DNA from: an uncultured Pelagibacteraceae bacterium
GTDB lineage: Bacteria; Pseudomonadota; Alphaproteobacteria; Pelagibacterales; Pelagibacteraceae
Length of the DNA stretch: 64,000 nt
Reading direction: 5' to 3'
Assembly: GCA_902585415.1 (NCBI GenBank)
Contig: CACIDN010000002.1
Location: forward strand, 1 to 64,000
In this document: in pieces, positions 7,268 to 63,059 of the stretch
How the letters are laid out: every line of letters begins with the position of its first letter
Position numbering within the stretch: the first letter of the stretch is position 1
The notes under the pieces: model-generated
Seen by the model: the letters and a program-made list of their open reading frames with translations, nothing else
What the model was told of the DNA's origin: nothing
Databases searched by the model: none
Program-made: the position numbers and the translations under genes

Positions 7268-7323
7268 AATATTTTTAATTTTTTCTTATAAGGTATAGTG
7301 TTATTCAAATAACAAATAATGTT

Positions 7324-8997
7324 GTGAATAAAATCTCTACAGAAGAACTATTTAAAACTGCCTACAATTATTTGCAAAGTAAAAATTACAGTAAATCTAT
7401 TAAATTATTTAAAAAGATACAGCTTAACTATCCAAATAATTTATCAGTTTTAAGAAATTTATCACATGCATATGCCTTTTCGGGAGATTTTATTAATGCG
7501 GAAAATACGATAAGAAATATTATAAAACTCAACGAAAAAGAACCTTATATTTTTCAGTTTCTTGCATCTATATTAAGAAACCAAGACAAAATCGAAGAAA
7601 TGATTTTTTTAATAGATGAAGGTTTAAAAAAAGGATTGATGAATCCAAAATGGAAATATCAGAAAGACCTTTTGTTTCCAATAATTGTTAAAGATAATAA
7701 TCAAATTGATAAATTCAGAAATAAAGTTAGCAACTGTTATGATCAAATTTTAAAAAATAATGAAAAATTAAATTATGATAATGATCAAATAATTCAAACT
7801 CCCCACTATGAGATGTCTTATAATCAATATGACAATCTTAAATTAAATGTTAAAAGTGTAAAAGCTTTGAGAAAAATCTATACAGAGCTAAATGAAACCT
7901 GCGTAAAAAAGAAAAATAAAAATGAAAAAATAAAAATAGGTTTTATATCAGAATTTTTTACAAATCATACAATAGGTAGATTATTTAAAAATATTATTTT
8001 TAGTCTCGATCGATCAAAATTTGATATATTTGTATTTCACTCAAATAAAACTAAAACAAGTGAAATATTTAATGAATTTGTTAAAAAAGAGAAAGATGGC
8101 TATTTAAAAAATATTACTCTTCCTCAAAAATTAAATGAAAAAATAAAAATATTTAAAAAGGAAATGTTCGATATTTTGTTTTATCCAGATATAGGTATGT
8201 CTGTTGAGTTTTACTATTTATCTTTAATTAGACTTGCTAAATGTCAAATAATGTCATGGGGACATCCTGAGACAACAGGTAGTGAGAGTATAGATTATTT
8301 CCTGTGCTCAAAAAGTTTAATTACTAACGAAACTGCAAAGAGTTATTCTGAAAAATTATTACTAATGAACCAATTGCCTATGATCTACGAGATACCGAAT
8401 TTAGAAAATAAACTTAATGATAAAAGTTTATCAAAAAATAACATTTACTCTTGTCCACAAACAATGTTCAAATTTCACCCTGATTTTGACCAAATTTTAT
8501 CTGAAATTCTCAACAGAGATAAAAAAGGTATTTTATATTTGATAAAGGATAGCAATAAAGTTTATTATCATAAATTAATTGAACGTTTTAAAAAAATTAA
8601 AAATTTCGACTTAGATAGAGTAATTTTTATTGATCAATTGAATAGGGATGGATATATAAATCATCTTGGTTCTTCATCAGTTTTGTTGGATCCATTGTAT
8701 TTTGGTGCAGGAAATTCATTTCATGAGTCGATGGTTTACGGAACTCCTACAGTAACAATGCCAACAAAATTTATTAAATCTAGAATTGTGACTGCTTCGT
8801 ATATACAAATGGAGATTGACAATCCTCCAATTGTTAAAAATAAGAATGAATATATAGAGAAGGCAGTTGATTTTGCAAACGCCAAAGATTTATTAAATAT
8901 TAAAAAATATTATAGAGAAAAAGCCAAGCAGAAACTATTTAACACTAAAAATGTGGGAGAGGAATTTAATAAAATCCTTCTCAACTTAAACTATTGA
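7324..8997 (+). CDS. TPR protein with O-GlcNAc-transferase-type (GT41) C-terminal domain
   Basis: The 557-residue protein opens with a short TPR array (about residues 1-120) and continues with a GT41/SPINDLY-like domain: IKIGFISEFFTNHTIGRLF near residue 200, SWGHPETTGS near residue 315, and LDPLYFGAGNSFHESMVYGTP near residue 460, the last corresponding to the UDP-sugar site of the family. It would transfer a sugar to protein side chains or another acceptor in the cytoplasm; the substrate is unknown. The start is GTG at 7324; an ATG at 7319 is out of frame and closed at once. It converges on folD, overlapping by 12 bp. Confidence 0.78.
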   Translation: MNKISTEELFKTAYNYLQSKNYSKSIKLFKKIQLNYPNNLSVLRNLSHAYAFSGDFINAENTIRNIIKLNEKEPYIFQFLASILRNQDKIEEMIFLIDEGLKKGLMNPKWKYQKDLLFPIIVKDNNQIDKFRNKVSNCYDQILKNNEKLNYDNDQIIQTPHYEMSYNQYDNLKLNVKSVKALRKIYTELNETCVKKKNKNEKIKIGFISEFFTNHTIGRLFKNIIFSLDRSKFDIFVFHSNKTKTSEIFNEFVKKEKDGYLKNITLPQKLNEKIKIFKKEMFDILFYPDIGMSVEFYYLSLIRLAKCQIMSWGHPETTGSESIDYFLCSKSLITNETAKSYSEKLLLMNQLPMIYEIPNLENKLNDKSLSKNNIYSCPQTMFKFHPDFDQILSEILNRDKKGILYLIKDSNKVYYHKLIERFKKIKNFDLDRVIFIDQLNRDGYINHLGSSSVLLDPLYFGAGNSFHESMVYGTPTVTMPTKFIKSRIVTASYIQMEIDNPPIVKNKNEYIEKAVDFANAKDLLNIKKYYREKAKQKLFNTKNVGEEFNKILLNLNY

Positions 8998-19085: not shown

Positions 19086-19190
19086 ATATATACTAAAAGT
19101 TGTAATATATTATAAAATAACAAAAAATACGAGAATTTTAGGGGTTCCAATATTTTTCATAATGAGTAATCTTCCGTCTTTTAACCTATA

Positions 19191-19200
19191 GGGAGGGAAA
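19191..19200 (+). promoter_or_regulatory. Unusually strong ribosome-binding site before the symporter small subunit
   Basis: GGGAGGGAAA ends 3 bp before the ATG at 19204. Most genes in this window have weak or no visible Shine-Dalgarno sequences, so a purine-rich G-run here stands out and suggests high translation of the DUF4212-symporter operon. The 118 bp upstream gap (19086-19203) must also hold its promoter and that of the divergent gene. Confidence 0.65.
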
Positions 19201-19203
19201 AAA

Positions 19204-19467
19204 ATGTCAAAACAAGCACAACATTGGGAAAAGACTAGAGGCCTGCTTTTTGTAACGCTAGCTATCTGGTTTGTTTTCTCTATTGGCATCTTCCTCTTCG
19301 GTGCCGAAATGGAAGCATCATCTATTAAACCTTTTGGATATCCATTGTCATATTATATGACATGTCAAGGTTCTCTTGGAATTTTCGTAATACTAATTTT
19401 TTGGTTTGCGGGAAGACAAGAAAAGATTGATGAAGAGTTCGGCTTTTCTGAAAGAGAGGATGACTAA
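19204..19467 (+). CDS. DUF4212 small subunit of a sodium/solute symporter
   Basis: The 87-residue protein has two membrane helices and the DUF4212 pattern: an N-terminal HWEKTRGLLFVTLAIWFVFS, then PFGYPLSYYMTCQGSLGIF, and an acidic tail. DUF4212 proteins are encoded immediately before VC_2705-type sodium:solute symporters and are regarded as their small subunit. The TAATG junction overlaps the symporter start by one base, so expression is coupled. Codon use is less extreme in AT than in the neighbours, which fits high expression. Confidence 0.92.
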   Translation: MSKQAQHWEKTRGLLFVTLAIWFVFSIGIFLFGAEMEASSIKPFGYPLSYYMTCQGSLGIFVILIFWFAGRQEKIDEEFGFSEREDD

Positions 19468-36235: not shown

Positions 36236-36751
36236 ATGACAACGATAGTACTGGTAAGAAAAAATAATGACGTAGTTGTGGCAAGTGATGGTCAAGTAAG
36301 TATGGGAAATACAGTTATCAAAAGCAATGCTAACAAAGTTCGTAAAATTGAGAAAAGAAATGTGATCGCTGGATTTGCTGGATCAACAGCTGATGCGTTA
36401 ACTTTATTTGAAAGGTTAGAGGCTAAACTAGAAAAACATGCAGGAAATTTGACAAGAGCAGCTGTTGAGTTAGCTAAAGATTGGAGAACAGATAAATACT
36501 TAAGAAGATTAGAAGCTCTTATGGCAATCGGTGATAAAGAAAAAAGTTTTATTATTTCAGGTAACGGAGACGTTCTAGAGCCTGAAGGAGATGTTATTGG
36601 AATTGGTTCAGGAGGAAATTATGCATTAGCTGCTGCAAAAGTATTAATGGATACTGAATTAAAAGCTGAAGAAGTTGCAAAAAAAGCCATAAAAGTTGCG
36701 GCTGATATATGTGTATTTACAAATAACAATATAAGAGTTGAAAAAATTTAA
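36236..36751 (+). CDS. hslV: ATP-dependent protease, peptidase subunit HslV
   Basis: HslV is the proteolytic core of the HslUV (ClpYQ) complex, a threonine peptidase. The protein starts [20 protein letters not shown], so after Met removal Thr2 is the catalytic nucleophile; [20 protein letters not shown] and [18 protein letters not shown]-like segments follow. Length (171) is normal. The hslU ATG overlaps the stop by one base. Confidence 0.97.
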
Positions 36752-38115
36752 TGGAAAAATCAAACATAAAAACATTCCCAAAAAAAACAGAGGAAAAAAA
36801 ACAAAATTATATTGACTCATTATCACCGAGAGAAATTGTGTCTGAGTTGGATAGGTATGTTGTTGGTCAGAATAAAGCTAAAAGAGCTGTTGCTATTGCA
36901 TTGAGAAACAGATGGAGAAGGCAAGCTTTAACAGGAGATATGCGTGATGAGGTGCTTCCTAAAAATATTTTAATGATTGGTCCAACCGGAGTTGGTAAAA
37001 CAGAGATATCAAGAAGATTATCAAAATTAGCTGAGGCACCTTTTGTAAAGGTTGAAGCTACGAGATTTACTGAAGTTGGATATGTTGGAAGAGATGTAGA
37101 ACAAATTATTAGAGATTTGCTTGAAATAGCTATAGCTATGGAAAAAGTTAAAAAAAGAAAAGAAGTTCATGCTAAAGCTCAAAAATTAGCTGAAGAAAGA
37201 GTATTGGATGCTTTAGTCGGAAATAAAGCGTCTGTTGCAACAAGAGAAAGTTTTAGGAAAAGACTTAGAGATGGAGACCTAGATGATAATGAAATAGAAA
37301 TTGCAACTAACGAATCTAACAACATGCCAAGCTTTGAAATACCAGGAATGCCAGGGGCAAACGTTGGAATGATAAATATTGGTGACATTTTGGGAAAGTC
37401 TATGGGAGGCAAGGCAAAGAAGAAAAAAATGACTGTCAAAGAATCTCACGATATTTTACTAAATGAGGAAGCGGACAAACTAATTGAGCAAGACAAGATT
37501 ATAAAATCAGCAAAGAATGTTACTGAGAACAATGGTATAGTGTTCTTGGATGAAATAGACAAAATTTCAGGTAGAACTGACAGAGTTGGAGGAGATGTAT
37601 CTAGAGAGGGTGTTCAAAGAGACTTACTTCCATTAATTGAGGGTACTACAGTTAGTACAAAGTATGGACCAGTTAAAACCGATCATATCTTGTTCATTGC
37701 ATCTGGAGCTTTTCAATTAGCAAAACCATCAGATTTGTTGCCTGAACTTCAAGGAAGATTACCGATAAGAGTGGAATTAGATGCTCTAACAAGTGAAGAT
37801 TTTAAAAGAATTTTAAAAGAGCCGGATAATAGTTTAATCAAACAATACAAAGCATTACTTAAAACAGAAAATGTTAACTTAGAGTTTTCTGAAGATGGTA
37901 TTGAGACTATTGCTAATCTTGCGACTGAAGTAAACTCATCTGTTGAGAATATTGGAGCAAGAAGACTTCATACAATAATTGAGAGAGTACTCGATGAAAT
38001 AAGCTTCACAGCAACAGATAGATCTGGGGAAAAAATTGTTATAGATTCTAAGTATGTTAAAGAAAACCTTGGTCAGTTGGTTAAGGATAACGATTTATCA
38101 AAGTTTATTCTTTAA
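36751..38115 (+). CDS. hslU: ATP-dependent protease, ATPase subunit HslU
   Basis: HslU unfolds substrates for HslV. The 454-residue AAA+ protein has [16 protein letters not shown] near its N-terminus, Walker [15 protein letters not shown] near residue 76, an intermediate domain, Walker [12 protein letters not shown] and sensor regions ending in [12 protein letters not shown] and [11 protein letters not shown]. It ends with the hydrophobic SKFIL tail that inserts into HslV. The 3' end overlaps the Smr gene by 18 bp. Confidence 0.97.
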
Positions 38116-38514
38116 TTTTAGATAAATACAAAAAAAACCTGAGTTTTTATTATCTGTTTGATCATCTATTTTTTTTATAATACTCATTAATTCGGTGTTA
38201 AATTTTATAAATTCGGGTACAGAATATTTAAGAATACCTAAATCTTTTGAATGGTATGGGTTTTGATCAACTTTAGATCTAAGTCCTTTTCCGGTAATAA
38301 TATTTAATTTTTCAATTTTTTTGTCAAAACACTCATTTATAAATTTTTCAACTTTGTTATTTGCTTGATCTAAAGAAAAGCCATGAAGATCTATTGTAGC
38401 TTCATTTTTATTTTTTCTAACATTTTTAAAATTATCTTTATCAGGAACACTTTGGTTTCCTTCAATAAAATCTTTCCAATCCTTTAAATCTTTTTTAGAT
38501 AATTTTTTATTCAA
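38098..38514 (-). CDS. Smr-domain protein
   Basis: The 138-residue protein contains a small MutS-related domain: [22 protein letters not shown] (D-L-H-G signature) and [12 protein letters not shown], the T-G-x-G motif. Smr domains are often nucleases that act on RNA or DNA. The domain occupies about residues 38-120. It converges on hslU and follows the Tim44-like gene with no gap, an order seen in other Alphaproteobacteria. Confidence 0.92.
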
Positions 38515-41990: not shown

Positions 41991-42571
41991 TTATATTTCT
42001 TTAAATAGTCTTTAATTTTTACTATCGGTAAACCCATTATAGTATTTTTGTCACCTTTGATATCGCTGAACAAATTTTTTCCCTCTCCTTCAATTTGATA
42101 AACATTATAAGCATACAAATTTTTATCAGATATCTTGGACAGGTAATCCTTGAGCTGGTCTTCATTTAAATTTTTCATTTTTAATTCTGCTTTATCGGTG
42201 CAATTCCATATCATGGATCCATTTTTTGATATACAAACAGAGCTAATAAGAAGATGTTTTTTGCCATTCATTTTCTTTAAAATACTAAGTGCTTCTTCTC
42301 TAGATCTAGGTTTTGAAAGTATCTCTCCATTAAGATCTATAACGCTATCAGCTCCTATCACTAATTCTTCTGGTCTTTTATTGCTAATTTTGTTTGCTTT
42401 CAACTCAGCCAAGGCTTTAGATATGTTTTCTGGTGTTGTTCCTTCATTTAACAAAGAATTTTTAATAACTTCCTCATCTATTTCAGACGGTATAGAAAAA
42501 CATATTATTCCGTTTTCTATTAATATTTTTTTTCTAACTTCGCTTTGCGAAGCTAATATTATTTTATTCAT
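41987..42571 (-). CDS. maf: Maf-family nucleoside triphosphate pyrophosphatase
   Basis: Maf proteins hydrolyse non-canonical or excess nucleoside triphosphates. The 194-residue sequence has LASQSEVRKKIL (S-x-S-x-x-R motif), SEIDEEVI, VIGADSVIDLNGEILSKPRSREEAL and the NVYQIEGEG region. The Met-Asn start fits. A short inverted repeat (CTTCGC-TTT-GCGAAG) lies in codons near the start but is explained by coding. It overlaps ppsR by 8 bp. Confidence 0.93.
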   Translation of the reverse strand: MNKIILASQSEVRKKILIENGIICFSIPSEIDEEVIKNSLLNEGTTPENISKALAELKANKISNKRPEELVIGADSVIDLNGEILSKPRSREEALSILKKMNGKKHLLISSVCISKNGSMIWNCTDKAELKMKNLNEDQLKDYLSKISDKNLYAYNVYQIEGEGKNLFSDIKGDKNTIMGLPIVKIKDYLKKYK

Positions 42572-43388
42572 TCTGGCTGAATATTTCGTGTATTTTTAAT
42601 ATTGAAGCAGCAGTTTCTTCAACAGATTTTCTTGTTACATCAATTGTAGGCCAATTATACTTTTGAAAAAGTTTTCTCGAATTTTCTATCTCATTTTTAA
42701 TTTTTTCAAAGTCTATATAACTTTTATTTTCGTTTTCTTTAATAGATTGCATTCTATTTTTTCTTAAATCTACTAATCTATCAGGTTCTGCTGTAAGCCC
42801 AACCACACACTTACTATCAGGTTTTTTTTTGAGGAAATCGGGTACCGATTGATCATTGATTAATGGAATGTTAGAAATTTTCATACCTTTGTTTGCCAGA
42901 TAGATAGATGTTGGTGTTTTGCTGGTTCTACTTACACCTAATAATATTATGTCTGATTTGTTAATATCATCTAATGAATTTCCATCATCATGGTTCATTG
43001 TAAATTGGATAGCCTCGATTTTTTTATAATAATCTTCATTCATAACGTGCTGCCCACTTGGAATGTGACTTGCTTCCTGATTAAGAAGTTTTGAAAACGT
43101 TAATATTAGGTCTCCTAAAACTCCGAAGCATGGTATTTTTTTTTTACCGCATTCTCTTGATAAAAACAAAGCAAGATTATTATCAACAATAGTATAAAGA
43201 AAAATTGAGTTCTTTGTTTTAGTTGAATTTTCTATGATTTTTAATATTTGATTTTCCGTTCTTGTAAATGAAAAATAATGTGTTTTATAATTAAAATTTT
43301 TGAATTGAGCTTTTATTGCTAAAAATATTCTCTCAAGTGTCTCTCCAGTCGAATCTGAGACTAAATAAATTTCATATGTATTACTCAT
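42564..43388 (-). CDS. ppsR: Pyruvate, phosphate dikinase regulatory protein (PpsR/DUF299)
   Basis: This family phosphorylates and dephosphorylates PPDK or PEP synthase. The 274-residue protein has YLVSDSTGETLERI at the N-terminus and the P-loop GVSRTSKTPTSIYLANKGMKISNIPL near residue 155, both diagnostic. Its neighbour across 285 bp is hemE; this ppsR (RP001-like)-hemE pair flanks the origin in Caulobacter and Rickettsia. It is the first gene of the leftward run to dnaQ. Confidence 0.93.
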   Translation of the reverse strand: MSNTYEIYLVSDSTGETLERIFLAIKAQFKNFNYKTHYFSFTRTENQILKIIENSTKTKNSIFLYTIVDNNLALFLSRECGKKKIPCFGVLGDLILTFSKLLNQEASHIPSGQHVMNEDYYKKIEAIQFTMNHDDGNSLDDINKSDIILLGVSRTSKTPTSIYLANKGMKISNIPLINDQSVPDFLKKKPDSKCVVGLTAEPDRLVDLRKNRMQSIKENENKSYIDFEKIKNEIENSRKLFQKYNWPTIDVTRKSVEETAASILKIHEIFSQNE

Positions 43389-43673
43389 GTATAAATGTTC
43401 AAATTATTTGTATTATATTTAATTTACAAATAACATTGCAAAATTTGTTAAATAAAACAAAAAAAGACGATTTTAATAACATTATTAAACATGTTTATAA
43501 AAATAATATGTTTTTTTGGGATAAAGTTTACAATCGTACATATAGCATTGGTTTTACTGCTATATTTTGACAAATTAATAGTGGAAAAAATGTTATAAAA
43601 GTGTTTAAAAAAAGTAATATTCATTATTAACACCTCTAATACAAATAATATATATATTACTTATTTTATTATT
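43389..43673. other. Candidate replication origin (oriC) region
   Basis: This 285-bp gap is the longest non-coding stretch in the window and is very AT-rich. It holds no believable gene. It lies between ppsR (leftward) and hemE (rightward), matching the known alphaproteobacterial origin position. Three 7-of-9 matches to the DnaA box TTATCCACA (either strand) occur: TGTTTATAA at 43492, TTGGGATAA at 43516 and AGTGGAAAA at 43580. No perfect DnaA box is present. A perfect inverted repeat TTTAATAA-CA-TTATTAAA lies at about 43472-43489. Function is inferred from position, not from strong sites. Confidence 0.55.
43567..43599 (+). promoter_or_regulatory. Possible hemE promoter
   Basis: A TTGACA hexamer at 43567-43572 is followed by AT-rich sequence with TGTTAT (43591-43596) at an 18-bp spacing and TATAAA just downstream. 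It is 75-100 bp upstream of the hemE start. The -35 is perfect but -10 is weak, and such matches are frequent in AT-rich DNA. Confidence 0.3.
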
Positions 43674-44675
43674 ATGACTGTTCTGCAAGATTGTATAAAT
43701 AAAAAATCTAATCCAAATTGTATTTGGTTAATGAGACAGGCAGGTAGGTATTTACCAGAATTTAGAAAGATTAGGTCTAAAAATCTGAATTTTATAAATT
43801 TATGTTTAAATGAGAGATTGTCTTCTGAAATTACACTACAGCCTTTAAAGAGATTTGGATTTGATGCAGCTATCATTTTCTCTGATATCCTATTAGTGCC
43901 TCATGCGTTAGGGCAAAACGTTAAATTTAAGAAAAACTTTGGACCTATACTTGGTAATCTTAATATTGATGAAATACATAAAATAAACGGCGATGATTTT
44001 ACAAAAAAACTAAGTCCTGTTTACAATGCTATTAAAAAAACAAAACTGAGTAGGGAGTTAAAAAATAAGGACTTAATAGGTTTTGTGGGTGCGCCCTGGA
44101 CAATACTGGTTTATATGTTAAACAAAAAGTCACCTAAAAAAAAATGTTTAAAAAATATTTTTAGAGACAATAAACTAATAAATAATCTCTTAAAAATTAT
44201 TGAAAAATTCCTTAAATTGCATATCGAAAATCAGATTAAAAGTGGAGCGACAATTATCCAGATTTTTGACAGTTGGGCTGGCTTGTCAAATGGAAGAGAT
44301 TATGAAAAATATGTATTGGAGCCCACTAAAAATTTAGTAAATTTCGTAAAATCAAAAAACACCCCTGTTATTTGTTTCCCAAAGGGTATCAGTGATTATA
44401 AAAAATACGTAGATATAGTGAGTCCAGAAGTAATAAGTATAGACTATGATGTAAACCCTGAGCAGATTGCAAAAAGCATTGATATAACTATTCAGGGAGG
44501 ACTTAATCCAAATTTTTTACTGGGCTCTAAAAGTGAATTGAAGAATAATGTTAAAAAATATTTAGATGTATTTAAAAACAAACAATACATTTTTAATCTT
44601 GGTCATGGTGTATTGCCCAACACTGATCCAAATATGGTAGAATATTTGGTTGAATTGGTTAAAAATTATAAATGA
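43674..44675 (+). CDS. hemE: Uroporphyrinogen decarboxylase
   Basis: HemE decarboxylates uroporphyrinogen III to coproporphyrinogen III. The 333-residue protein has IWLMRQAGRYLPEFR near residue 18 (conserved Arg and Asp region), FSDILLVPHALG, FVGAPWTILVYML, IFDSWAGL and NLGHGVLPNTDPN. Length is typical. It opens the plus-strand run hemE-hemH-hemJ-rho, with hemH overlapping by 4 bp. Confidence 0.96.
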   Translation: MTVLQDCINKKSNPNCIWLMRQAGRYLPEFRKIRSKNLNFINLCLNERLSSEITLQPLKRFGFDAAIIFSDILLVPHALGQNVKFKKNFGPILGNLNIDEIHKINGDDFTKKLSPVYNAIKKTKLSRELKNKDLIGFVGAPWTILVYMLNKKSPKKKCLKNIFRDNKLINNLLKIIEKFLKLHIENQIKSGATIIQIFDSWAGLSNGRDYEKYVLEPTKNLVNFVKSKNTPVICFPKGISDYKKYVDIVSPEVISIDYDVNPEQIAKSIDITIQGGLNPNFLLGSKSELKNNVKKYLDVFKNKQYIFNLGHGVLPNTDPNMVEYLVELVKNYK

Positions 44676-50802: not shown

Positions 50803-51434
50803 TCGAATCAAATCTAAAAAAATATTCTCAATTAGAAACATTAAACGTTTCACGTGAAACATTTCCTGTATTAGAGGAATTTAGATCGTTGTTAATTGAT
50901 GAAAACAAGAAAATTAACTTAATAAGCAAGTCTACAGAGAAAGAGTCTATCAAAAGACATATAATTGATTCAGCACAAATTGCTGATATTATTGATAAAA
51001 ATGCTAAATCATGCATGGATTTGGGGTCAGGATCGGGACTTCCAGGTATTGTTTTAGCTATAATATTTAAGAAAAAAGGTTCAATGATAAAATTCGACCT
51101 TTATGAAAAAAGTTTTAGGAAAAGTAAATTCTTAAAAAGGGTTGTTAAACATTTTGATCTAAATGCAGAGGTGAAACAAAAGAATGTTTACGATGAAAAA
51201 TATATTGAGGCAGACATAGTAGTAGCTAGAGCATTTAAACCACTCCAAATTATTTTAGAATTAGTTGATAAAAATTTTGTCCACTTTAACAAACTAATAC
51301 TATTTTTAGGTAAAAGTGGAAAGGAAAATGTAAAAAAATGCCAAAAAACATGGAAGATTGATTATGAAGTTTCAAAAAGTTTGACGGACGATAAATCTAT
51401 AATAATAAAAATCAATAATTTAAAAAAGAAATGA
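50799..51434 (+). CDS. rsmG: 16S rRNA (guanine-527-N7)-methyltransferase RsmG (GidB)
   Basis: RsmG methylates G527 of 16S rRNA. The 211-residue protein starts with TTG at the mnmG stop; it has [35 protein letters not shown] (SAM loop) near residue 69 and [12 protein letters not shown]. Residues NVSRETF near position 17 are specified by an embedded parS site, a known constraint on alphaproteobacterial rsmG. It overlaps parA by 4 bp. Confidence 0.94.
50846..50861. promoter_or_regulatory. parS centromere-like site (ParB binding)
   Basis: The 16-mer CGTTTCACGTGAAACA matches the bacterial parS consensus TGTTTCACGTGAAACA at 15 of 16 positions, and its central 14 bp are a perfect palindrome. It lies inside the rsmG coding region about 0.6 kb upstream of parA. 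parS sites mark the origin-proximal region bound by ParB. Proximity to parA-parB makes function very likely. Confidence 0.93.
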
Positions 51435-52231
51435 AAGAAAAAATAATATCAGTAATAAATCAAAAGGGTGGGGTCGGAAAAACAACAACCGTAATTAATT
51501 TAGCTGCCGGTCTTTCATTAAATAAAAAAAAAATCTTAATAATAGATCTAGATCCTCAAGGAAATGCCACTACAGGTCTAGGATTATCTAATTTAGAACA
51601 AACACATAATTCAATCTATCAAGTGTTAAGTGGTACAAAAAAAATTGAAGAGTCAATTTCTAAAACAAAATATAATAATCTTGATATAGTCACTTCTAAC
51701 GTAGATTTGTCAGGACTTGAAGTTGAAACAGCAGATGATGGTCGTAGAGCTTATATTTTGAAGGAGAAATTAACCGCAAATTTAAACAATTCTAGAGGTT
51801 CCTACGATTATGTGCTTATAGACTGCCCACCGTCCCTTAGCTTATTGACCGTAATGGCACTAGTGGCCTCACATTCTCTTTTGGTACCACTACAAACAGA
51901 ATTTTTCGCTTTAGAGGGCATAACACAATTGATCAAAACTATTGACAGGATCAAAGCAGGTTTAAATCCTGACCTATCGATAAGAGGGATACTTCTCACG
52001 ATGTATGACAAAAGAAATAAGCTTTCAGGAGAGGTTGAGGCAGAAGCAAGAAATTATTTTAAGGAGAAGGTTTATAAAAATGTTGTGCCTAGGAATGTAA
52101 GATTGTCAGAGGCCCCTTCGCATGGAATGCCAGTAATATTTTATGACAAAACTTGTCCTGGTAGTAAGTCATATCTAAATTTTATGGAGGAATTTTTGGC
52201 ACAAGAAGAGAGTTTTGTAACAGCAGCATGA
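51431..52231 (+). CDS. parA: Chromosome-partitioning ATPase ParA
   Basis: ParA is a deviant-Walker ATPase that moves ParB-bound origins. The 266-residue protein has ISVINQKGGVGKTTTVINLAAGL at the start (signature Lys present), IIDLDPQGNATTGLG, DYVLIDCPPSLSLLTVMALVA and SEAPSHGMPVI. It overlaps both rsmG and parB by 4 bp. The chromosomal type is supported by the rsmG neighbour and parS. Confidence 0.96.
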   Translation: MKEKIISVINQKGGVGKTTTVINLAAGLSLNKKKILIIDLDPQGNATTGLGLSNLEQTHNSIYQVLSGTKKIEESISKTKYNNLDIVTSNVDLSGLEVETADDGRRAYILKEKLTANLNNSRGSYDYVLIDCPPSLSLLTVMALVASHSLLVPLQTEFFALEGITQLIKTIDRIKAGLNPDLSIRGILLTMYDKRNKLSGEVEAEARNYFKEKVYKNVVPRNVRLSEAPSHGMPVIFYDKTCPGSKSYLNFMEEFLAQEESFVTAA

Positions 52232-53070
52232 TTAGTTTTAAAAGCAAAAAAGGTTTGGGCAGAGGATTGTCTTCTTTAATAGGAGAAGGAAAAATCTCCT
52301 CAAACACAAAAGCTAACATAAGTGAATTAAAAAGAAATAAATACCAACCAAGAAAAAAATTTGATGAGGCAAGGTTAGATGAATTAACAGACTCTATTAA
52401 ATCTAGAGGTATTATTCAGCCAATAATAGTAAGAAATTCAGATAGTGATAGTAAATATGAAATAATAGCAGGAGAGAGAAGATGGCTTGCAGCTCAAAAA
52501 GCAGGTTTACATGAAGTTCCAATTGTAGTTATAGATGTCGATGATAAAAAGGCATTAGAATTTGGAATTGTTGAAAATGTACAAAGACATGACTTAAATG
52601 CTATCGAGGAGGCTGAGGGATATAAGAGACTGATTGATGAATTTTCATATGACCAGGAACAAGTTGCCAAATTTATTGGGAAGAGCAGAAGTCATATCAC
52701 CAACTCATTAAGATTATTAAGTCTTCCAGACCAAGTTATTGAGTTTTTAAAAGAAAGTAAGTTATCCCCTGGTCATGCTAAAATTTTAGTTGGCTTAGAA
52801 AACTGTTTATCAGTATCAAAAAAGATTATCTCAAAAAAATTGTCAGTAAGACAAACCGAAAATTTAGTAAGAGTTTACAAAACACCTAGCAAGAAACTTT
52901 CTCGGAATAAAGACCCTAATATTAGGCAATTAGAGTTAAATTTAATGGATAAGTTGGGGATAGAAGTAATTATTAAAAATACAAAAATGAATAAAGGATC
53001 TATTTCATTTAATTATAAAGACTTAGATCAATTAAGCAGAATTATTGAGACAATTAAAAAGAATTATTAG
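52228..53070 (+). CDS. parB: Chromosome-partitioning protein ParB
   Basis: ParB binds parS and spreads as a CTP-dependent clamp. The 280-residue protein has KKGLGRGLSSLIGEG at the start, then LKRNKYQPRKKFDEARLDEL (box I), AGERRWLAAQKAGL (CTP-binding box II), ENVQRHDLNAIEEAEGYKRL and the QVAKFIGKSRSHITNSLRLL helix-turn-helix. The C-terminal dimerisation region is present. It converges on holA with 17 bp overlap. Confidence 0.96.
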   Translation: MISFKSKKGLGRGLSSLIGEGKISSNTKANISELKRNKYQPRKKFDEARLDELTDSIKSRGIIQPIIVRNSDSDSKYEIIAGERRWLAAQKAGLHEVPIVVIDVDDKKALEFGIVENVQRHDLNAIEEAEGYKRLIDEFSYDQEQVAKFIGKSRSHITNSLRLLSLPDQVIEFLKESKLSPGHAKILVGLENCLSVSKKIISKKLSVRQTENLVRVYKTPSKKLSRNKDPNIRQLELNLMDKLGIEVIIKNTKMNKGSISFNYKDLDQLSRIIETIKKNY

Positions 53071-62503: not shown

Positions 62504-62546
62504 GGATACTGTATATATTTATTACCTTTGGTTTTATAGCTTAATC

Positions 62547-62557
62547 AGTGTGACACT
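62547..62557. promoter_or_regulatory. Short palindrome in the gap before the small exported protein
   Basis: AGTGTGACACT is an 11-bp odd palindrome between two divergent genes (ABM gene and the small exported protein). It could be an operator. Being short and unique, it is weak evidence. Confidence 0.2.
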
Positions 62558-62613
62558 CTGTTGCTTAAAAATTATAAATAAATAACCATATCTAAATAAA
62601 CAAAAGGATATTT

Positions 62614-62820
62614 ATGAAAAAGTTAGTGTTAATTTTATCTTTTGTATTATTTTCTAGTTCTGTATTTGCAGGTTCATGCCCAATGATGGCAAAAAACCTT
62701 GATGCAAAAATTGCAGAAGCTCAAGAATTAAGAGATGCTGGAATGAAGGCTCACGACAGTGGTGAACACAATAAATCAGTAGATCTTCTTAATAAAGCAT
62801 TAGAAATGTTTAAAGGATAA
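62614..62820 (+). CDS. Small exported helical protein of unknown function
   Basis: The 68-residue precursor has a clear signal peptide (MKKLVLILSFVLFSSSVFA, cut before GSCPMM), leaving about 49 residues with one Cys and an amphipathic helix pair (KIAEAQELRDAGMKAHDSGEHNKSVDLLNKALEMF), which recalls a single TPR-like hairpin. An AAAAGGA ribosome-binding site lies 6 bp upstream. It is divergent from the ABM gene. The family is not recognised. Confidence 0.75.
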   Translation: MKKLVLILSFVLFSSSVFAGSCPMMAKNLDAKIAEAQELRDAGMKAHDSGEHNKSVDLLNKALEMFKG

Positions 62821-62832
62821 TTTTTTTGGAGT

Positions 62833-62861
62833 TTGGGGCACCTGGCAACAGAACGCCCCAA
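62833..62861 (+). other. GC-rich hairpin after the small exported protein
   Basis: TTGGGGC at 62833-62839 pairs with GCCCCAA at 62855-62861 around a 15-nt loop, 12 bp after the stop. In such AT-rich DNA it is striking. No T-run follows, so it is not a textbook terminator; it may terminate with Rho or protect the 3' end of the mRNA. Confidence 0.5.
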
Positions 62862-62940
62862 CATAAACTAACATTTCTTTAAACTTTTTAGTTAAATTTA
62901 TTCTTGACATTGTAGTTGCGCATTTTTCGTTAAATTTTTT

Positions 62941-63057
62941 TCAATTTTTATTTTTCTTTTTTTCTCTTTTAATTTTTCTTTTTTCTTTCATAGATAGCTT
63001 GGGTTTCTTCATTACACTAGAATCTTTAAACGATTTTCCGCTATATCTTTTAGACAT
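62941..63057 (-). CDS. Possible 38-residue lysine-rich basic peptide
   Basis: An ATG at 63057 opens a frame reading MSKRYSGKSFKDSSVMKKPK and continuing with Lys/Glu/Arg-rich residues to a TGA at 62941. It is strongly basic, like small ribosome- or nucleic-acid-associated proteins. It begins 2 bp after the stop of the FAD oxidoreductase gene on the same strand, which supports coding. I do not recognise a family, and Lys-rich ORFs arise readily in AT-rich DNA. Confidence 0.45.
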   Translation of the reverse strand: MSKRYSGKSFKDSSVMKKPKLSMKEKRKIKREKKKNKN

Positions 63058-63059
63058 AA

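Follow-up and report, generated by a model that had tools for sequence, protein, structure and literature searches.

Where does chromosome replication start in this member of the Pelagibacteraceae, a SAR11 bacterium of the ocean? The question is raised by a 285-bp gap between two divergent genes, ppsR and hemE, in the window, by which we mean the whole 64,000-nucleotide stretch analysed (bases 1–64000 of contig C2, from a genome of 39 contigs and 1.04 Mb that is 82% complete). An earlier note, made by reading the letters alone, had proposed the gap as a candidate origin. We conclude that this gap is very probably oriC, the chromosomal origin, and that it belongs to the hemE type already known from Alphaproteobacteria. 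Its position, its conservation, the skew minimum in relatives, a cluster of DnaA boxes and a triplet array can be read directly from the sequence, and from these we infer origin activity. The gap and its flanks are as follows.

43389–43673, unstranded: very probable oriC, the intergenic gap between ppsR and hemE (conserved length; skew minimum and densest box cluster in relatives)
42564–43388, minus strand: ppsR (PF03618), left flank, from Pfam
43674–44675, plus strand: hemE (PF01208), right flank, from Pfam

The gap has 16.8% GC against 28.6% for the window, so that its A+T content (83.2% versus 71.4%) is above average, as in hemE-type origins. Pfam searches confirmed the gene order that had been read from the sequence, with ppsR, maf, aroE, coaE and dnaQ running leftward and hemE, hemH, hemJ (UPF0093) and rho rightward. 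The claim that this is the largest gap in the window held if small ORFs and ORFs with TTG or GTG starts were counted as genes, and failed under other rules. Positions 19086–19466 and 62504–63059 have no ORF of 90 aa, yet contain ORFs of 87 and 68 aa. Under an ATG-only rule, 38116–38514 and 7268–7599 are also longer free stretches than the gap; these are filled by ORFs of 138 aa (TTG start) and 557 aa (GTG start). In three complete relatives, the gap was not the longest ORF-free run, such runs reaching 1.2–1.3 kb. Frames of 61 aa (GTG start) and 84 aa (TTG start) lie inside the gap, and we judged them not credible as genes because of the many indels in the gap between relatives. No RNA family was matched at gathering score within the gap, and the sole match in the window was a tRNA.

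As the earlier note had pointed out, the gap occupies the position of the Caulobacter and Rickettsia origins, between hemE and the COG1806/DUF299 (ppsR) gene. Caulobacter Cori and Rickettsia oriC (hemE-COG1806), as described in passages of PMC1914354, share with it the flanking genes, their divergent order, an AT-rich gap and DnaA-box-like sites. Class-wide, divergent ppsR and hemE were about 332–1070 bp apart in 29 of 30 fetched loci; the fetched loci were the top scorers among the 100 genomes, of 144 searched, that gave a match. Closer to the window, we collected 108 loci from its genus and from close Pelagibacteraceae contigs and required both flanks. The gap measured 261–289 bp (median 283) in the resulting 105 loci, which held 93 distinct sequences. 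Across all the loci compared, L062, L077, L080 and L256 were left out of the counts because a flank was missing. The 93 gaps are mutually related and collapse to 24 dissimilar representatives, a number for which alone we used exact 8-mer enrichment, as this was dominated by single-occurrence GC-rich words. In the genus search, 5 of 115 genomes gave no ppsR match, and the conclusions on the origin rest on the others. Six further genera of the family supplied 22 loci with 261–297 bp before hemE.

Both flanking genes can be exchanged. In genus g5 (L404 and L274, both genomes), the order is ppsR, a gap of 353 bp, then rho in place of hemE. In one of these genomes, G269, hemE is at 718 kb (C1:718082–719053), far from the gap at 141 kb, and from the gap (3329–3681 of L274) to rho there was no match to hemE, hemH or hemJ. 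Because hemE lies elsewhere and none of the three genes precedes rho, the g5 origin would sit between ppsR and rho. None of 32 genomes of the sister family f2 yielded a ppsR; maf stands in its place, with 265–280 bp between maf and hemE in all 12 genomes examined (e.g. L257–L268). Since either neighbour can go and the gap stays, the gap itself, rather than the flanking genes, seems to be what is conserved. Passages of PMC1914354 describe a similar case in Wolbachia, Anaplasma and Ehrlichia (hemE-COG1253), where the origin stays on the hemE side after the other flanking gene was lost or moved; the new neighbour in f2, however, is maf, and in g5 rho stands instead of hemE. These exchanges bear on the idea that the gap is only a shared promoter region. 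Divergent ppsR and hemE do need promoters, and the gap is AT-rich, but it persists without ppsR (12 of 12 f2 genomes) or without hemE (two g5 genomes), its box density is about 40–60 times that of other intergenic DNA, and the skew minimum falls on it in three of three relatives. A promoter and nothing more is thus very improbable, and the gap may have a promoter role besides that of an origin.

A check suggested in the earlier note was cumulative GC skew. Its minimum fell at the gap in all three complete relatives examined (G012, G269 and G185, from two genera). Minimum and gap were at 1267 and 1262 kb in G012, 150 and 141 kb in G269, and 908 and 910 kb in G185, that is, less than 10 kb apart; the genomes were sampled at 60, 50 and 42%, respectively, and the minima resolve only to several kb. 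The distance from minimum to maximum was about half a chromosome in each. Coding bases were co-oriented with forks leaving the gap at 64, 66 and 60%, values that were equalled by only 1.5, 2.5 and 2.4% of antipodal axes. In G012, the one genome searched for 16S rRNA, this gene is transcribed away from the gap.

The raw skew is carried by gene orientation. Once orientation was removed, the three genomes disagreed, which speaks against treating the skew as an independent mutational signal. Orientation-corrected skew at fourfold sites was dropped as an independent locator of the origin, since it came out inverted in G012 and gave no consistent result in G269 and G185. In G012, it switched once, at 1240–1262 kb, with inverted polarity (leading-strand genes prefer C over G and A over T); codon selection is a possible cause. 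Among 2000 permutations, the observed value was reached by 33 (GC) and 0 (AT) in G012, 283 and 60 in G269, and 650 and 1856 in G185. The polarity in G012 is that expected of a terminus, but it was not reproduced in G269 or G185. Moreover, tandem intergenic DNA of G012 had the normal sign, although its convergent and divergent intergenic DNA did not differ between the arms, and the raw skew minimum, gene orientation, 16S direction, parS and box cluster all point to an origin. We consider a terminus at the gap practically negligible.

Many bacteria start replication beside dnaA, which here lies on the hemE side, at a distance from the gap of about 64 kb in G012 and 66 kb in the window's own genome, where both are on the same contig. 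An origin elsewhere, for example beside dnaA, would be compatible with minima that resolve only to several kb in genomes sampled in part. In G012, however, dnaA is at 1198 kb and the skew minimum at 1267 kb, and all the minima fall by the gap rather than 64 kb away from it. The sampled parts also held no other box cluster, although the unsampled 40–58% could hide one. We regard a start elsewhere as highly unlikely.

The surroundings of the gap also fit an origin that is segregated by a Par system. The earlier note had placed parA, parB and a parS nearby; both genes were confirmed by Pfam, and the parS-like site lies 7.2 kb from the gap.

50846–50861, unstranded: parS-like site CGTTTCACGTGAAACA, one mismatch, from a motif scan
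51431–52231, plus strand: parA, from Pfam
52228–53070, plus strand: parB, from Pfam

CGTTTCACGTGAAACA was the only site with at most one mismatch in the 39 contigs of its own genome. The distance of 7.2 kb between a parS-like site and the gap holds in G000 and G012, and in G049 and G050 an exact parS lies no more than about 10 kb from hemE. One further one-mismatch site was present in each of G012 and G050, far from the gap.

The DnaA boxes had looked poor. Only 7/9 matches to TTATCCACA had been seen, which is correct for TTATAAACA (43492–43500, minus strand) and TTATTAACA (43624–43632, plus strand), and either relaxed DnaA specificity or an origin elsewhere had been offered as the reason. Aligning the 93 gaps gave the following sites, where a site is counted at no more than one mismatch to TTATNMACA.

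43624–43632, plus strand: putative DnaA box TTATTAACA, beside the presumed unwinding region; site in 87/93 gaps, exact in 54
43492–43500, minus strand: putative DnaA box TTATAAACA; site in 56/93 gaps, exact in 36
43473–43481, plus strand: putative DnaA box TTAATAACA, one mismatch; site in 87/93 gaps, exact in 49
43602–43610, minus strand: putative DnaA box TTTTAAACA, one mismatch; site in 65/93 gaps, exact in 28
43580–43588, minus strand: degenerate putative DnaA box TTTTCCACT, two mismatches, at a conserved position; site in 84/93 gaps, exact in 30, degenerate in the window

Seven aligned positions carried a site in 25% or more of the 93 gaps, and at two of these the count reached 87, so that box positions recur as the conserved blocks that the earlier note had asked to be sought among relatives. 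Together with the skew minimum, they support its reading of the gap as an origin. At 43624–43632, some relatives have TTATTCACA. Because two exact TTATNMACA in 285 bp are only modestly unusual in the window (246 of 63,715 windows), the case for the boxes rests on the relatives. There, TTATNAACA occurred 219 times versus 14.2 in dinucleotide shuffles and was present in all 93 gaps, and TTATNCACA occurred 57 times versus 3.4. G or T at box position 6 was not enriched in these gaps (TTATNGACA, 1 versus 1.9; TTATNTACA, 19 versus 14.9). Counts of one-base substitutions likewise showed A at position 6 (219 versus 14.6) to be as enriched as C (57 versus 3.3). Other positions also exceeded expectation, mostly to a lesser degree: A (16 versus 3.1) and C (6 versus 0.5) at position 1, T at 3 (39 versus 3.7), C at 7 (18 versus 3.1), and G (13 versus 1.3) and T (34 versus 10.2) at 9. 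A and C alternate at one aligned box site among the relatives.

TTATNMACA, with A allowed at position 6, was present in 93 of 93 gaps, giving the box-like cluster typical of hemE-type origins. The canonical TTWTNCACA was absent from the window's gap, where each of the three TTWTNMACA sites carries A at position 6. Among the relatives, 72 of 93 gaps had one or more copies of it, and elsewhere in the class just 13 of 29 did. In G269, G185 and G012, TTATNMACA sites clustered most densely, counted per 285 bp, at the gap, with 4, 4 and 3 sites (one of the four in G269 starts 7 bp outside the gap), compared with at most 2 elsewhere in the sampled parts. Density was 8.5–13.8 per kb in the gap and 0.22–0.28 in other intergenic DNA. 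Of the two explanations offered for the poor boxes, the data thus favour a changed box, with A and C enriched at position 6 and G and T not; the 7/9 matches look poor because the lineage form takes A in place of C there.

The A form extends through the family. In 24 gaps of seven other genera (L405, with its ppsR cut, left out), raw counts without shuffles were 55 for TTATNAACA, 5 for TTATNCACA, 0 for TTATNGACA and 2 for TTATNTACA; genus g137 alone was even (2 TTATNAACA, 2 TTATNCACA). Elsewhere in the class (29 gaps), TTATNCACA was the enriched form (17 versus 0.5 in shuffles) and TTATNAACA was near expectation (1 versus 0.6). The 12 gaps of f2 held 4 of each, which hints weakly that this sister family keeps canonical boxes.

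We then compared DnaA itself, whose C-terminal domain is present in the window's own genome. The base-contacting residues of helix 5 in E. coli DnaA are 432–435, 438 and 439 (PMC5043019). We numbered positions 430–431 by counting back from R432 of E. coli. These positions are GG in 18 of 18 f2 proteins and in the solved structure 8btg, which we take to be B. subtilis DnaA. In the window's family, the glycine two residues before RDHTT (430) was absent from all 42 proteins read: 430–431 are SN or AN in 17/17 from the window's genus (12 of 29 genomes with a match, plus 5 more) and AN, SN, TG, SG or CG in 25/25 from other genera. Residues 432–435 and 439 are unchanged in the family, and for that reason a link between the turn at 430–431 and box base 6 is put forward only as a hypothesis. 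Its weak point is f2, where the A and C forms are equally rare.

One reading is that initiator and origin code changed together across the Pelagibacteraceae: DnaA would have lost the glycine that precedes RDHTT and would now recognise TTATN[A/C]ACA. We put the odds of this at about even; the tolerance at positions 1, 3, 7 and 9 lowers our confidence. Somewhat short of even is the prospect that the origin is right and DnaA specificity unchanged, the A-form sites being bound by another protein or being boxes weakened by AT pressure. The conserved base-contacting residues 432–435 and 439 fit this, as does a tolerance not confined to position 6. However, under AT mutation pressure T would be expected at position 6 no less often than A, and T is not enriched there. 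An unchanged specificity is also hard to square with A being as enriched as C, with the alternation of the two at one aligned site, and with a DnaA turn altered in the same family. The joint change has a parallel in Epsilonproteobacteria, where a lineage-own box form likewise goes with changes in DnaA domain IV (PMC5043019); there, T at position 5 and residues 435, 438 and 439 are involved, whereas in SAR11 it would be A at position 6 and residue 430 (often 431).

On the hemE side of the gap, a box, a few bases, a triplet array and AT-rich DNA follow one another.

43636–43650, minus strand: DnaA-trio-like triplets, 5'-TAT-TAT-TTG-TAT-TAG-3', first T conserved in aligned gaps
43637–43673, unstranded: AT-rich stretch (94.6% A+T), presumed unwinding element, overlapping the triplets

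The register was picked once the alignment had been inspected; in it, the first base of the three middle triplets is T in 92/93, 93/93 and 90/92 gaps, and the middle base is A in 77/93, 41/93 and 78/92. The published trio rule, which asks for three or more triplets with a middle A on that strand, gave runs no longer than chance (2.78 versus 3.01 in shuffles) when triplets were read at a fixed offset from the box. Indels blur this fixed-offset reading; period-3 A on the hemE strand gave a mean run of 5.80 versus 3.65, reached in 0 of 200 shuffles. Because the fixed-offset reading matches the published rule no better than chance in DNA this AT-rich, we call the element trio-like. The arrangement resembles a DnaA-trio unwinding element, the BUS of DnaA-box and DnaA-trio in passages of PMC8287927 and PMC10316083, which has the same box, short spacer, triplets running 3' to 5' away from the box, and AT-rich DNA. 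In the window's close relatives, by comparison, the first T is the steadiest triplet base, and TTG is one of the five triplets in 45 of 93 gaps. In f2, the array of L258 reads CTACTACTACTA, with four TAG repeats on the other strand; a passage of PMC10316083 reports that maritima depends on TAG repeats. A trio-type element was predicted in 85% of 2070 origins, according to a passage of PMC8287927.

Taken together, these features suggest how initiation might proceed. DnaA, whose gene is some 66 kb away on this contig, would bind the cluster of boxes of the lineage form TTATN[A/C]ACA, and a filament would grow from the box at 43624–43632 on the strand whose triplets begin with T, running from 43636 in the direction of 43650. 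Melting of the AT-rich DNA ahead of hemE would follow, helicase would be loaded there, and two forks would leave. ParA and ParB, acting with the parS-like site 7 kb away, would move the new origins apart. DnaA binding, melting, initiation and segregation at the gap are all predictions from sequence, as is the notion that the changed box reflects a changed DnaA, whose specificity is perhaps altered.

Among the literature matches listed, no title or abstract opening names this gap as the SAR11 origin (subscription papers and DoriC lay outside the scope) or names the box form with A at position 6. A replication start was drawn from skew for LSUCC0530 (PMC6018831) and Fonsibacter (PMC6811365), and the passages concerned give no gene or gap for it. 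An earlier skew model of HTCC1062 gave unequal arms (PMC2099444), and skews of this group are called atypical in a passage of another study (PMC2031905). Within the same matches, the shifted box with a matching DnaA change across the family appears to be new. A precise SAR11 origin with its boxes would make initiation in this group directly testable; growth of SAR11 in the sea has been estimated from origin-to-terminus read depth (passage of PMC9589681). If true, the paired change would offer a natural experiment in the shifting of a DNA code that is almost universal. A search rule that allows few mismatches to TTATCCACA would score such origins too low and, if the reading is right, does so for one of the most abundant bacterial groups.

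A further difference from Caulobacter and Rickettsia, besides the acceptance of A at box position 6, is that GANTC was scarcer in the 93 gaps than in shuffles (4 versus 12.6, sd 3.4); CtrA-like TTAA-N7-TTAA showed no clear excess (37 versus 26.2, sd 4.6). Despite the scarce GANTC, a GcrA match was found in 12 of 13 genomes searched; the control search matched Caulobacter and, oddly, Sulfolobus acidocaldarius. Near the origin, positions 36236–38115 of the window encode a proteasome-like protease subunit followed by a Clp-type AAA protein, a pair that we infer to be HslV-HslU.
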